Source of the DNA: Halapricum salinum
GTDB taxonomy: Archaea; Halobacteriota; Halobacteria; Halobacteriales; Haloarculaceae
DNA length: 64,000 nt
Direction: 5' to 3'
NCBI RefSeq assembly: GCF_004799665.1
Contig: NZ_CP031310.1
Span: 2,968,887 to 3,032,886, forward strand
Part shown: piece by piece, positions 20,166 to 61,545 of the stretch
How positions within the stretch are numbered: the stretch's first letter is position 1
Layout: each line of letters starts with the position of its first letter
The notes under the pieces: model-generated
What the model saw: the letters and a program-made list of their open reading frames with translations, nothing else
Database searches by the model: none
Told to the model about the DNA's origin: nothing
Translations under genes and position numbers: made by a program

Positions 20166-20284
20166 CACGCAGAGGGGTCGGAGAGATGTTGAACCACGGG
20201 AAATTCGCTTCGCTCGCTCCCTGGTTCAAACTCTCCACGTTCAGAATTCACGCGCTGCTCGGAGTCGAGCAGCGCGAGAAGTTA
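20160..20284. repeat. proximal tRNA-Trp T-arm palindrome unit
   Basis: In the tRNA sense (minus strand) the order after the tRNA is: a perfect 11-bp hairpin (CGCGCTGCTCG/CGAGCAGCGCG), an inverted T-arm copy (GGAGAGTTTGAACCA), a GCGAGCGAAGCGAA inner segment, and a direct T-arm and acceptor copy ending CTCTCCGACCCC (20174-20193). The unit is therefore an imperfect palindrome built from the tRNA 3' end. A diverged second copy lies at 17040-17160. Confidence 0.75.
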
Positions 20285-20461
20285 TGGGGTCGGAGAGATT
20301 TGAACTCCCGATCGACTGATATCTCCGGTAGCGCCTCGGAACTCCAGAGGGTCATCAGCGCGGTCGATGATCAGTCGGCCGCTCAGTATATCAGTCTGGA
20401 GTGTCGTCCCGGGCGCGTTGCCTCTGGAGTCAGTCGCCATGCCGGACTTGGCCACGACCCC
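20285..20461 (-). tRNA. trnW: tRNA-Trp (CCA) with 103-nt intron
   Basis: Exon 1 is 20461-20424 and exon 2 is 20320-20285. Joined, they give a 74-nt tRNA with a 7-bp acceptor (GGGGTCG/CGACCCC), a D-arm GCCA/TGGC, an anticodon stem ACTGA/TCAGT with loop CTCCAGA (anticodon CCA), a T-arm GGGAG-TTCAAAT-CTCTC and discriminator A. The splice sites form a textbook bulge-helix-bulge: bulge AGA, 4-bp helix CTCC/GGAG, bulge ATA. The intron (20321-20423) contains TGATGA (20357-20352) and CTGA elements. This matches the known haloarchaeal tRNA-Trp intron that doubles as a box C/D guide for 2'-O-methylation of its own transcript. CCA is not encoded. Confidence 0.95.
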
Positions 20462-37041: not shown

Positions 37042-37262
37042 CTGTAGCGGCGACGCCCGCGAGAACAGCAGTAGTGCCGCTTCGGACCACCAGCCGATTC
37101 AGAGTATGTCCTGTCAGACACTGCGGCTGTCGAACAGGCCGTAGGAGTTGTCGCCTGGAGGGCGACCCTCTCTGAACGTCGTCGGACGAGCGGACCGGTA
37201 GGTGAAACCGGTCATGACACAACTGTCTCGACGGCTCTCCGATCGGTTCCGTGAGAAGTTTT
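37042..37262. other. intergenic stretch after the molybdoenzyme operon
   Basis: No supportable coding frame: open frames here lack starts and domains. An ACTGTCTCGACGG segment (about 37222-37234) matches the head of the 62-bp repeat found at 40.3-40.8 kb, and the region then runs into tRNA-Leu-derived repeats. Confidence 0.4.
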
Positions 37263-37480
37263 GCGAGGGAAGATCACTCCTGCTCACGGGGCATCGCGTG
37301 CCCCGTTCGCGTCTTCGAGGCCTCCTCGGGGTCGGCCTCGCTGATCTTCCTGCACTGTTTTGCGAGGGGCCGTAGTGGCCAACAGTGCGAGGGAAGGGAT
37401 TTGAACTACGCGGTCGGCAAAGCCGCCCTCTCGTTCAAATCCTTCCGTGTGCATCTTGTTCGGCCCGTTTTGGGCCTCAC
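37263..37480. repeat. tRNA-Leu 3'-end derived palindromic repeats
   Basis: Copies of the tRNA-Leu 3' end complement (GCGAGGGAAGGGATTTGAAC) recur at 37387, exactly 100 nt from the tRNA's own copy at 37487, and in shortened form at 37263 and 37362. In the tRNA sense the nearest unit reads: hairpin GGCCCAAAACGGGCC, inverted T-arm GGAAGGATTTGAAC, inner GGCGGCTTTGCCG, direct T-arm and acceptor. The 37263 unit has its own inverted partner (GCGAGGGAAGATCA with TGATCTTCC). Same architecture as at tRNA-Trp and tRNA-Arg. Confidence 0.75.
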
Positions 37481-37485
37481 ATCGA

Positions 37486-37569
37486 TGCGAGGGAAGGGAT
37501 TTGAACCCTTGGACCCCTACGGGAGCGGATCTTGAGTCCGCCGCCGTTTCCAGGCTTGGCTACCCTCGC
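37486..37569 (-). tRNA. trnL: tRNA-Leu (CAA)
   Basis: 84-nt class II tRNA. Acceptor GCGAGGG/CCCTCGC, D-arm beginning GCC, anticodon stem GCGGA/TCCGC with loop CTCAAGA (anticodon CAA), long variable arm TCCCGTAGGGGTCC, T-arm AAGGG-TTCAAAT-CCCTT, discriminator A. No intron. CCA is not encoded. It is followed downstream by partial copies of its own 3' end. Confidence 0.95.
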
Positions 37570-37626
37570 ACCTATGTCGTGCATTGGTTGGTACTTCGAG
37601 GGCGTATAAACCTCCTGCGGATTGCG

Positions 37627-52049: not shown

Positions 52050-53413
52050 CAGAGCGCGTACTCCGACTCACGCAACTGGACGTACCCGTGTTTCCGGAAT
52101 TTGCGCCTGGTCCACAGGTATCGCCCAAGGAGCGACATCCCACTCCAGCCTGCACGGAACGCCTGCCGGCCCCGTGTCCCTTCGAACTCGACCATCCGCC
52201 TCACTGTCCGGAAGACCTCGTCCCAGTCCGCTGGCCCCATGTCGCGGGCCCTCTCGGCGAGGGAGACGTTTCGGATAATCTCGTCGCCGATCGCGTCTTT
52301 CCACTCGGGGTTGTACCGCTGCATATCGCCGCTGGCGGCCAGTCGGCCAGCAATCTTTCCCGTCCGAACGGCGACGTGGTCGCCGCCTTCGTGGAACGCA
52401 GAGGTCGCGCCCATCGCGCCGCCGACGACGGCGACGTTGGCCTGCGTCGGTGATTCGATCGGTTGCGTCGAGGAGATCGGATAGGCTTCGGTCCCCTTCT
52501 GTTTCCCTCGATCTTCGACCAGCGGGAAGTCTTCGAGGTCGTAGTCCGGGTAGAGCCACTCCAGCAGCCGCCGGATGTAGACCCGCCCGGGCGGGATCTG
52601 TTCGTCGTCGGGCTGCAGGAGTGTGTAGGCGTCTCGATTCGCGACGGCGTCGAGATCCATTCCGATGGGCATCGTCAGGCCGACCCGTGCGACGTTGTCG
52701 TCGTTCGGGAAGATCCACGGATACGCAGTGTGTCCGGGGATGACGCCCCACCAGAATTTGAGCAACTCGGGGTCGAACAACTCTTCGGGGATCTTGCGAT
52801 GTTCCTGGTAGGCGATGTGATTCGCCGTCTTCGGTCCCAGAAGTGACGAAATCGACCGCCCGCTCGGCATGAACTGGTCGACGGCGTTCAACGTGACTGT
52901 ACGCTGGGGGCCGTCCGCCAGCACGAGCGCGTCGGCTTCGATCTCCTCGCCGTCCGCGAGGGTCAGGCGGTGGGTATACGAACGGCCGTCGCGCGTCGAT
53001 TCGACGTCGGTGACGTTCGTTCCGACCTCGTAAGAGGCACCGGCAGCTTCGGCCTCTTCGCGGAGCCAGTCGTCGAAACGGGCCCGCTGGAAGGCGAAGC
53101 CGAAGCCGTCCCACGACGATTCGATCTGGGTGTTCTTGACCGTCGCAGACTCAGAGGGGCCGCCGAAATACGCCCCTTCGAGGTCGCTGAGGATGATGTC
53201 CTCGGGAATCTCCTCGGGTTCGTAGTCCATGATGTCGACCCAGTAATCGAGCATACCAGCAGCGTCGGTCGAGTCGGGGCCGAGATGGTCGCGGTCCGAG
53301 CGCGGAACCCCCTTCTCGATGACGAGCGCATCCGCATCGCCGTCGGCAGCGGCTTTCGCGGCGGAACTACCCGCCGGCCCGCCACCGACGATCGCAACGT
53401 CGACTTGGTGCAT
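52049..53413 (-). CDS. geranylgeranyl reductase family FAD-dependent oxidoreductase
   Basis: Flavoenzyme of 454 aa that saturates isoprenoid chains of archaeal lipids, quinones or dolichol. Features: the N-terminal Rossmann DVAIVGGGPAGSSAAKAAAD; the substrate-site motif AYPWIFPNDDNVARVGLT (YxWxFPx8GxG type); and a second flavin motif VAVVGGAMGATSAFHEGG. The length is typical for haloarchaeal paralogs, of which several exist per genome, so which lipid is reduced is unclear. It is coupled to a small membrane protein gene. Confidence 0.9.
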   Translation of the reverse strand: MHQVDVAIVGGGPAGSSAAKAAADGDADALVIEKGVPRSDRDHLGPDSTDAAGMLDYWVDIMDYEPEEIPEDIILSDLEGAYFGGPSESATVKNTQIESSWDGFGFAFQRARFDDWLREEAEAAGASYEVGTNVTDVESTRDGRSYTHRLTLADGEEIEADALVLADGPQRTVTLNAVDQFMPSGRSISSLLGPKTANHIAYQEHRKIPEELFDPELLKFWWGVIPGHTAYPWIFPNDDNVARVGLTMPIGMDLDAVANRDAYTLLQPDDEQIPPGRVYIRRLLEWLYPDYDLEDFPLVEDRGKQKGTEAYPISSTQPIESPTQANVAVVGGAMGATSAFHEGGDHVAVRTGKIAGRLAASGDMQRYNPEWKDAIGDEIIRNVSLAERARDMGPADWDEVFRTVRRMVEFEGTRGRQAFRAGWSGMSLLGRYLWTRRKFRKHGYVQLRESEYAL

Positions 53414-53651
53414 ATCCCCTACCCCGAACCCTCGGGATTTAATTCTTGCAGGTTGAGTTTCGGGCTACATGCCGGTCGGCGAGTGCCTGGCCTCGGGCGT
53501 GCAGACTTCGAACGTCGCTCGTTCACGTCTCCATTCGACGATACCGACCGTTTCGGTCGCTGGCAGAACGTTGACTGTGAGAAAAGACCTGCTCCGCACT
53601 CGTTTTGGTATCAGTGGACTTTCAACGACTGCGAGTGTCACTGTTCCCACC
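53414..53651. other. divergent promoter region
   Basis: This 238-bp gap separates the divergent reductase and dehydrogenase genes. GGATTTAATTC (about 53433-53443) is an AT-rich box suited to the minus-strand gene. No coding frame is supported. Confidence 0.4.
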
Positions 53652-54617
53652 ATGGTCCCAGAACCGACTGAGATCCTCGTCTTCCAGCAGAAACTCCACG
53701 GACTGCCCGTCGAGCGCCTCGTCGACGCGCTGGACGAACGCGTCGGGTCAGCGACGGTCTCGCTGGCGATAACCGACGAAGCGATCGACGAGAAACTCCC
53801 CGACGCGACCGTCGTCGTCGGCCGCACGATCACTACCGAGCAACTCGAACTGGCCGAATCGCTCGAACTGTTCGCCTGCTCGTTCGCCGGGACCGACCAC
53901 CTCCCGCTCGACGAACTGACCGATCGTGGGATCACGGTCACGAACGCCGGCGGCGTCCACGCCTCCAACGCCGCCGAGCAAGCGATCGGCGGCCTCCTCG
54001 CGCTCACGCGGGATCTCTTTCGCGCACGCCGCCAGCAAGCAGACGGTGTCTGGCAGAACTTTCAATCAGGGGAACTGGCAGGCGGCACGGCCACGGTCGT
54101 CGGACTCGGCGCGATCGGGTCTGCGATCGCAGAGCGGCTCCAGCCGTTCGACGTGACGATCCGCGGCGTCCGCCACTCGCCCGAGAAAGGCGGCCCCGTT
54201 GATGAAGTCTACAGCTACGACGAGTTCGAGCAGGCTATCGTCGACGTCGACGCTGTCCTGCTGGCCTGCCCGTTGACCGAGACGACCCGAAATCTCCTCG
54301 ACCGGTCGGCGTTCCAGGTCCTCCACCCCGAGACGATTCTCGTCAACGTCGCCCGCGGTGGCGTCGTCGACACCGAAGCCCTACTGTATGCACTCCGTTG
54401 GAACGACATCGGTGGGGCGGTGCTAGACGTCACCGATCCCGAGCCGCTGCCGCCCGAGCATCCGCTGTGGGGCTTCGAGAACGTCCTAATCACACCGCAC
54501 AACGCCGGCTACACCCCAGAGTATTACGAGCGGCTGGCGGACATCCTCGCCGAGAACGTCGACCGAGCGCGTGAGAACGGCGAATGGATCGGGCTGCGGA
54601 ATCAGATCGTGCCCTGA
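53652..54617 (+). CDS. D-2-hydroxyacid dehydrogenase
   Basis: NAD(P)-dependent D-isomer-specific 2-hydroxyacid dehydrogenase of 321 aa. The nucleotide fold is VVGLGAIGSAIAERLQPFDV. The catalytic Arg is in ILVNVARGGVVDTEAL, the Glu region is DVTDPEPLPPEHPLW, and the catalytic His is in LITPHNAGYTPEYY. The substrate is not predictable (glyoxylate, hydroxypyruvate or a branched ketoacid). Start 53652 (MVPEPTE) is preferred over an upstream frame with no homologous features. The end overlaps a convergent gene by 16 nt. Confidence 0.9.
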   Translation: MVPEPTEILVFQQKLHGLPVERLVDALDERVGSATVSLAITDEAIDEKLPDATVVVGRTITTEQLELAESLELFACSFAGTDHLPLDELTDRGITVTNAGGVHASNAAEQAIGGLLALTRDLFRARRQQADGVWQNFQSGELAGGTATVVGLGAIGSAIAERLQPFDVTIRGVRHSPEKGGPVDEVYSYDEFEQAIVDVDAVLLACPLTETTRNLLDRSAFQVLHPETILVNVARGGVVDTEALLYALRWNDIGGAVLDVTDPEPLPPEHPLWGFENVLITPHNAGYTPEYYERLADILAENVDRARENGEWIGLRNQIVP

Positions 54618-61069: not shown

Positions 61070-61142
61070 GGGCGTGTGGCCTAGCGGACAGGGCGAGGGG
61101 TTCCTAACCCCTCGATCCCGGGTTCGAATCCCGGCACGCCCG
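61070..61142 (+). tRNA. trnR: tRNA-Arg (CCT)
   Basis: 73-nt tRNA: acceptor GGGCGTG/CACGCCC, D-arm starting GCCT, anticodon stem AGGGG/CCCCT with loop TTCCTAA (anticodon CCT, reads AGG), T-arm CCGGG-TTCGAAT-CCCGG, discriminator G. No intron; CCA not encoded. Partial copies of its 3' end recur downstream. Confidence 0.95.
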
Positions 61143-61545
61143 TGCAGCGACCGCAGAGAGCGAACCGGCATGGCGGGATTCTAATCAGGGAGCGGGAGGT
61201 GAGCGAGCGCAGCGAGCGAACGGGAGCGACCGTGGTTCGAATCCCGGCACGCCCGTGCAGCGCGAGACGCGAACGACGTGAGCGTCTCGGAACGGCGAGC
61301 AGAGAGGAACGACCCGCGAGCAAGGAGCGCGAGCCACAGGCTCGCGCGACTGAACCGGAACCGGGATTCGAGCCCTGGGAGTCGCGCGCAACGCTGTGAG
61401 CACGTCTCCCTCCGGTTCGAATCCCGGCACGCCCGCTCGACTCGCTTCGCTCGCCTCGCGGACGTCCCGTAGATCGCAAACGCGAAGCGTTTGCTCACTC
61501 CCGGCACGCCCGCTCGACTCGCTTCGCTCGCCTCGCGGGCGTCGA
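61143..61545. repeat. tRNA-Arg 3'-end derived palindromic repeats
   Basis: The tRNA 3' end GGTTCGAATCCCGGCACGCC recurs at 61234-61255 and 61414-61435, and in truncated form (CCGGCACGCCCG) at 61501. Each of the first two is preceded by an inverted T-arm copy (GCGGGATTCTAATC at about 61173; CCGGGATTCGAGCC at 61361) and a GAGCGAGCGCAGCGAGCGA-type inner segment. The last two copies also share CTCGACTCGCTTCGCTCGCC after the core, 77 nt apart. No coding frame here is credible. Confidence 0.8.

Follow-up and report, generated by a model that had tools for sequence, protein, structure and literature searches.

Why are the 3' ends of several tRNA genes in a haloarchaeal chromosome followed by inverted and direct copies of themselves? 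The question is raised by a stretch of 64,000 nt (hereafter the window), which covers positions 2968887-3032886 of the one-contig 3.45-Mb genome of Halapricum salinum (labelled G000). A preliminary description had placed arrays of such copies behind the genes for tRNA-Arg, tRNA-Leu and tRNA-Trp and had offered three meanings for them, namely decoy or tandem attachment sites, a palindrome process at tRNA ends, and transcribed T-arm mimics. The coordinates were read and the copies located, and all three arrays are present where they had been put (Table 1).

Table 1. Position of the tRNA genes and of the parts of the units behind them in the window
Feature	Position	Strand	Remark
tRNA-Arg(CCT)	61070..61142	+	copied segment nt 53-73 = 61122-61142
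Arg unit 1 spacer	61143..61171	+	
Arg unit 1 inverted T-loop copy	61172..61186	+	imperfect
Arg unit 1 inner hairpin	61187..61234	+	GAGCGCAGCGAGC type; MFE sense -35.1, antisense -21.1
Arg unit 1 direct copy of nt 53-73	61235..61255	+	exact
Arg unit 2 spacer	61256..61359	+	contains hairpin 61327-61347
Arg unit 2 inverted T-loop copy	61360..61374	+	
Arg unit 2 inner hairpin	61375..61414	+	R1 type (GGGAGTCGCGCGC..GCACGTCTCCC); covariance model R1 match G000:C1:3030259-3030300, E 7.6e-5
Arg unit 2 direct copy of nt 53-73	61415..61435	+	exact
Arg unit 3	61436..61512	+	degenerate; hairpin 61477-61493, partial tail copy 61499-61512
tRNA-Leu(CAA)	37486..37570	-	nt 53-73 = 37486-37506
Leu unit spacer	37447..37485	-	contains hairpin 37462-37476
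Leu unit inverted T-loop copy	37433..37446	-	GGAAGGATTTGAAC
Leu unit inner hairpin	37407..37432	-	
Leu unit direct copy of nt 53-73	37386..37406	-	exact
Leu second tail copy	37262..37272	-	partial, only 11 nt
tRNA-Trp(CCA)	20285..20461	-	intron-bearing; nt 53-73 = 20285-20305; 5' end by eye; missed by ARAGORN at the settings used
Trp unit spacer	20237..20284	-	contains hairpin 20251-20276
Trp unit inverted T-loop copy	20223..20236	-	
Trp unit inner hairpin	20195..20222	-	GAGCGAAGCGA
Trp unit direct copy	20174..20194	-	one extra T-loop base (GTTCAACATCTC)

Layout and boundaries of the units

Behind the tRNA, each unit is made up in the same order of a spacer with a hairpin, an 11-nt inverted copy, an inner hairpin of about 35-60 nt and a direct copy of the tRNA tail. 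The units measure about 80-140 bp, with spacers mostly of 20-90 nt, and no ORFs or element-borne genes were found in them. The copies usually end about 80-140 nt 3' of the tRNA, and more units frequently follow. When the last 30 nt of each of the 43 tRNAs of the genome were compared with 600 nt on each side (match +1, mismatch -2), 20 showed a downstream direct copy scoring at least 13, against a best upstream control of 10; upstream copies at a score of 13 were found at none of the 43 tRNAs within the 600 nt. In a wider sample of 196 tRNAs, 131 tail copies were located at 89 (exact 10-nt copy within 600 nt), which is not an estimate of frequency because some loci were chosen for a match to the unit pattern, a selection that leaves the boundary unaffected; the controls gave 2 (reversed tail), 2 (upstream) and 0 (another tRNA's tail).

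The edges of these 131 copies define what is copied. Towards the 5' side, identity to the tRNA falls from 0.84 at nt 53 through 0.73 at nt 52 to 0.32 at nt 51; at the other edge, the first base beyond nt 73 gives 0.53. A T-arm had been described as copied, and a direct copy does exist, but its span is only tRNA nt 53-73 and not the full T-arm. Similarly, the inverted copy is present and specific to its own tRNA as had been stated, but it is complementary only to nt 54-64 and fades past nt 64. At nt 57, 59 and 62-64 it agrees with its own tRNA in 398 matches, whereas 1000 permutations never exceed 316, and an example is AATTGAA opposite the T-loop TTCAATT. Its sequence matches the proximal tail in 12 cases and the distal one in 13, five of the latter coming from a convergent tRNA-Leu unit behind tRNA-Thr. 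Since the direct copy begins at nt 53, a T-arm cannot form; instead, the direct and inverted copies pair to give one long hairpin. The transcribed T-arm mimic is therefore unsupported: the 5' strand of the T-stem (nt 49-53 with 61-65) is missing, with identity at background from nt 51. Further candidates were also dropped, namely a primer-binding site for reverse transcription (complementarity ends at nt 64), a pseudouridylation or methylation guide RNA (no motif by eye) and a kink-turn (the bulge is absent).

First tail copies are 0.43 nt off their tRNA and later copies 1.70 nt (P = 0.001), which is as expected if new units arrive beside the gene. Altered tRNA tails were compatible with the 5' strand in 25 of 62 cases against 19.5 expected, a difference that is not significant. 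In addition, an extra C in the copied T-loop (GTTCACAATCC) recurs in 10 of 144 units at several tRNA species, the base being unpaired opposite the inverted copy.

Distribution, empty sites and the inner hairpin

The pattern GATTYGAR-N(28-58)-GTTCRAATY has 16 distinct sites in the H. salinum genome, every one on the same strand behind a tRNA tail, and the reversed control pattern has 0. The unit pattern is present in 379 of the 392 genomes of the order, spread over 91 of 95 genera, with 0 matches to the reversed pattern in each order genome listed; among the named records that carry it are Natrinema, Halorubrum, Halobacterium, Natrialba, Halorhabdus and Haloprofundus, where the tRNA lies mostly 31-77 nt upstream. 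A scan for units at the other tRNAs of the genome (20 of 43, as above) and in relatives is positive on both sides, and the preliminary view that a common layout with tRNA-specific arms marks a distinct class holds at many tRNAs and in most relatives. At E <=1e-5, a covariance model of the inner hairpin (R1) has matches in 50 of the 295 phylum genomes, and all 50 fall in the order of the window. The unit pattern was also matched in five haloarchaeal plasmids; the phage records scanned gave no match, and matches in viral contigs were set aside as chance-like in records from outside the haloarchaea. In a record labelled Woesearchaeota, of another phylum, a unit-like hairpin stands 42 nt behind tRNA-Ser(gct) (DUFX01000036.1, locus L356), which may reflect mis-binning or transfer.

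The presence and absence of units is precise. At four tRNAs, exact filled and empty sites were found in related species, the flank of the empty site resuming at offset 0 after the tail copy: tRNA-Lys(ctt) (genome pair G274/G218, alignment score 733), tRNA-Ser(gga) (G109/G218, 558), tRNA-Val(gac) (G274/G109, 513) and tRNA-Arg(gcg) (G000/G274, a score of only 51 from a short alignment). The remaining genome pairs are less clear, with offsets of 6-18 nt or an alignment running through the spacer. Genomes of the same genus differ in the units at one tRNA; among four of them, tRNA-Val(gac) is filled in G109 and empty in G000, G274 and G218, and one filled site in four points to the gain of a unit. 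In G109, a palindromic MITE-like element of about 130 bp (AGTGACCGTTGTA..GATTTAC..GACCGCAC..) was also seen in tRNA trailers (loci L145, L149, L157 and L160).

The inner hairpins of 26 units of R1 type align around AG(T/A)CGCA - variable stem - (A/C)CGTCT. The sequence conservation is somewhat circular because the alignment was partly chosen by motif, a limit that does not touch the covariation: 44 double-change cells were counted in the inner helix against 16.8 in shuffles, 0 of 500 shuffles reach 44, and sliding the partners by 1-3 columns leaves 1-17 cells. The non-Watson-Crick cells of the R1 alignment are 9 G-U and 1 A-C, a bias that suggests folding of the tRNA-sense strand, although a separate folding test with symmetric pairing gave no G-U excess (GU 55, AC 61). 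The hairpins are shared between targets. That of Arg(tct) in the H. salinum genome is identical over 34 of 34 nt to that of Arg(ccg) in G109, those of Glu(ttc) and Lys(ttt) in other genera are 96% identical, and overall 95-100% identity is found across tRNAs and across species. The inner hairpin most similar to that of a given unit belongs to a different tRNA in 83 of 120 units, and the mean similarity is 0.62, against a maximum of 0.33 for shuffled sequences. A search of the unit loci with Rfam 15 gave above threshold only tRNA and C/D-box sRNA, and two sub-threshold matches at chance level.

Copies of the aspS end and other sites outside tRNA genes

The strongest R1 match of the H. salinum genome lies behind aspS, not behind a tRNA, and a copy of the last codons of aspS follows the hairpin. 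The inner hairpin is of the same kind as in the tRNA units, and aspS shares only GTTC with the tRNAs. Downstream copies of the gene end occur at 27 of 55 aspS loci in several families, 45 copies in total. They differ from the gene end in a mean of 8.9 of 33 nt and keep 9.6 of 11 residues, against 5.6 expected from random substitution; the search required at least 7 of 11 residues, so the mean retention is biased upward, which does not apply to the 18 perfect cases. These 18 copies encode the identical peptide and stop with 2-10 nt different, and 0 are identical in DNA; the displaced copies encode FPRDRQRLSP plus stop with other synonymous codons. Since a downstream copy cannot be under coding selection, the copies must once have been functional gene ends. 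Gene ends are swapped here: the copies are old aspS ends displaced by a new end from a diverged lineage, or were imported from one.

R1 hairpins occur mainly, but not exclusively, at gene 3' ends. R1-like hairpins were found antisense to the operon, between overlapping genes, at the leuC and nuoC start codons (G000:C1:2393194, L429, and 2775278, L437); by eye, short copies of the start region, both direct and inverted, are visible at leuC and fainter at nuoC. Moreover, in genomes of family f4 (L625-L628, L633, L638) the R1 hairpin lies inside a longer dispersed non-tRNA repeat (GCTGGGGAGGCGTGAGG .. GGGGCTTTGGAGGTGT) with many copies per genome.

Possible origin and significance of the units

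On balance, we lean towards the reading that a unit is one insertion of a tiny non-coding integrative cassette which swaps the gene end, probably by site-specific recombination. Such a cassette would consist of a copy of the 3' end of the target gene, the spacer hairpin, the short inverted copy and the structured inner hairpin, and would insert precisely at a conserved gene 3' end, from GTTC (tRNA nt 53-56; GTTCCCG in aspS). The gene would retain a functional end, the resident end would be displaced 3' of the hairpin, and repeated insertion on the tRNA-proximal side would build up tandem arrays in which age and wear increase with distance from the gene. The structure, the target, the mobility and the swapping of gene ends are shown by the data above. 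We infer that a site-specific recombinase, a role suited to a tyrosine recombinase, would act in trans and cross over at GTTC; the hairpin may act as a folded single strand in movement (DNA; RNA less likely). Among the meanings offered earlier, the tandem part of decoy or tandem attachment sites comes closest, as the units behave as precise tandem insertions. Several points tell against the cassette: it carries no gene of its own; within a single target gene, units could also be spread by homologous recombination of the tail repeats; a move from tRNA to tRNA should briefly leave a wrong tail, for which a plain Campbell-type event is no remedy; the inverted copy is split almost evenly between proximal and distal matches, the tail compatibility count is not significant and the symmetric folding test shows no G-U excess; and a few R1-type hairpins are located at gene starts or in dispersed repeats, not at gene 3' ends. 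We also entertain, tentatively and with more doubt than belief, a stronger form, in which an order-wide gene-less hairpin would move as a folded single strand among many targets and rebuild target-matching arms at each site, driven by a haloarchaeal enzyme that reads GTTC and the hairpin with no fixed attachment sequence. There is a real chance that such rebuilding of target arms is categorically new.

An RNA element is an unlikely alternative, in which the units would be structured 3' trailers of pre-tRNA, with a role in processing or termination, spread by gene conversion via the T-loop sequence. It would account for compensatory changes that preserve structure, for the later T-rich stretches behind the tRNA that several units precede, and for a folded strand that is the transcript strand. 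The latter is suggested by the G-U count given above and by a minimum free energy of the sense strand below that of the antisense in 55 of 80 units. However, about half of the tRNAs have no units and orthologous tRNAs vary freely in carrying them, the same inner hairpin stands behind aspS, with only GTTC in common, and antisense at the leuC and nuoC starts, and displaced aspS ends that preserve coding are not predicted by a trailer.

It is less probable again that the units are ordinary integration scars, i.e. remnants of integrase islands whose interior was deleted and whose ends were fused. In favour of this, the segment from the T-loop to the 3' end is where tRNA-targeting integrases typically have their attachment block (PMC8371274), and integrases do swap gene ends, as seen at aspS. 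Yet islands and units can be observed side by side. In the case of tRNA-Val(cac), gene and unit are separated by a 10.4-kb island (G000:C1:44108-54700, locus L089); the island carries a tyrosine-integrase-like ORF (53405-54449, minus strand) and ends in a right attachment copy, after which the host unit follows. The attachment copy is GTTCAGAATCC, with an extra T-loop base as in GTTCACAATCC of many unit tails. Likewise, tRNA-Phe and its unit are about 70 kb apart with a short tail copy before the unit (G000:C1:211592-281902, L427), and this stretch is probably a large integrated island; displaced units also occur at Pro and Tyr tRNAs in relatives. Because the islands sit between the tRNA and the unit, they are separate from the units, which bears out the earlier statement that the layout is not a simple att duplication. 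Furthermore, an R1 hairpin is absent at the own ends of the three islands examined (Val(cac), Pro and Tyr), and the Phe stretch is likewise without one, the size and layout of the units are uniform across dozens of targets, and no kb-sized form was seen in which genes separate the spacer from the hairpin.

Least probable of all is a local DNA process without any mobile element, in which template switching or fold-back repair would make the copies and correct quasi-palindromes: it accounts for target-specific inverted copies that fade after nt 64, for tandem arrays and for a few aspS loci (L449, L463) in which an inverted copy is present and the inner hairpin nearly absent, but not for 95-100% identical inner hairpins at unrelated tRNAs of different genera, the conserved inner sequence AGTCGCA..ACCGTCT, the confinement to one order or the synonymous divergence of the aspS copies, and the palindrome process proposed earlier fails in its purely local form on these near-identical hairpins and coding-preserving aspS ends.

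The cassette reading can be compared with several known systems. Like integron cassettes and CALIN (attC), the units form tandem arrays that grow at one end and have imperfect hairpin repeats, AAC..GTT-like ends and one structured strand; unlike them, they contain no ORFs, sit on tRNA or aspS ends and have target-derived arms, and their cores GTTCAAA, GTTCGAA and GTTCCCG do not fit the attC core GTTRRRY / RYYYAAC. Integrons have been reported in archaea, with none for Halobacteria in the main text (PMC9668308). With tyrosine-recombinase elements at tRNAs (SNJ2, pNOB8; PMC8371274) the units share a directly repeated tRNA 3' end on their far side and the precise empty site in relatives (four tRNAs, offset 0), whereas they are only about 100 bp long, have no integrase gene, show no clear derivation from a bearer, and use most tRNA species and aspS in one layout with a conserved structured hairpin and an inverted copy. 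MITE, PATE and REP elements, such as the PATEs of Haloquadratum (PMC3119063), are equally short, palindromic, non-coding, dispersed and presumably moved in trans, but their ends are fixed, while the inverted copy and tail of a unit match the host gene, be it a tRNA or aspS. CRISPR arrays and casposons resemble the units in the order repeat-unit-repeat beside a fixed leader, with the newest unit leader-proximal, and in target duplication on insertion; they differ in that the content of a unit is a conserved hairpin family and not foreign spacers. An earlier description of the element was found neither in Rfam nor in the literature searched, which consisted mostly of papers outside subscription.

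For annotation, the tail copies of units can pass for the attachment sites of islands. If the cassette reading is true, nearly every haloarchaeal genome carries an overlooked mobile element on its most conserved genes, and one structure lets an element exploit many different tRNA genes. This would explain the trailing tRNA fragments that are usually dismissed as integration scars, would mean that the ends of essential genes such as aspS are exchanged rapidly between species, and would point to a recombinase with a hairpin substrate.
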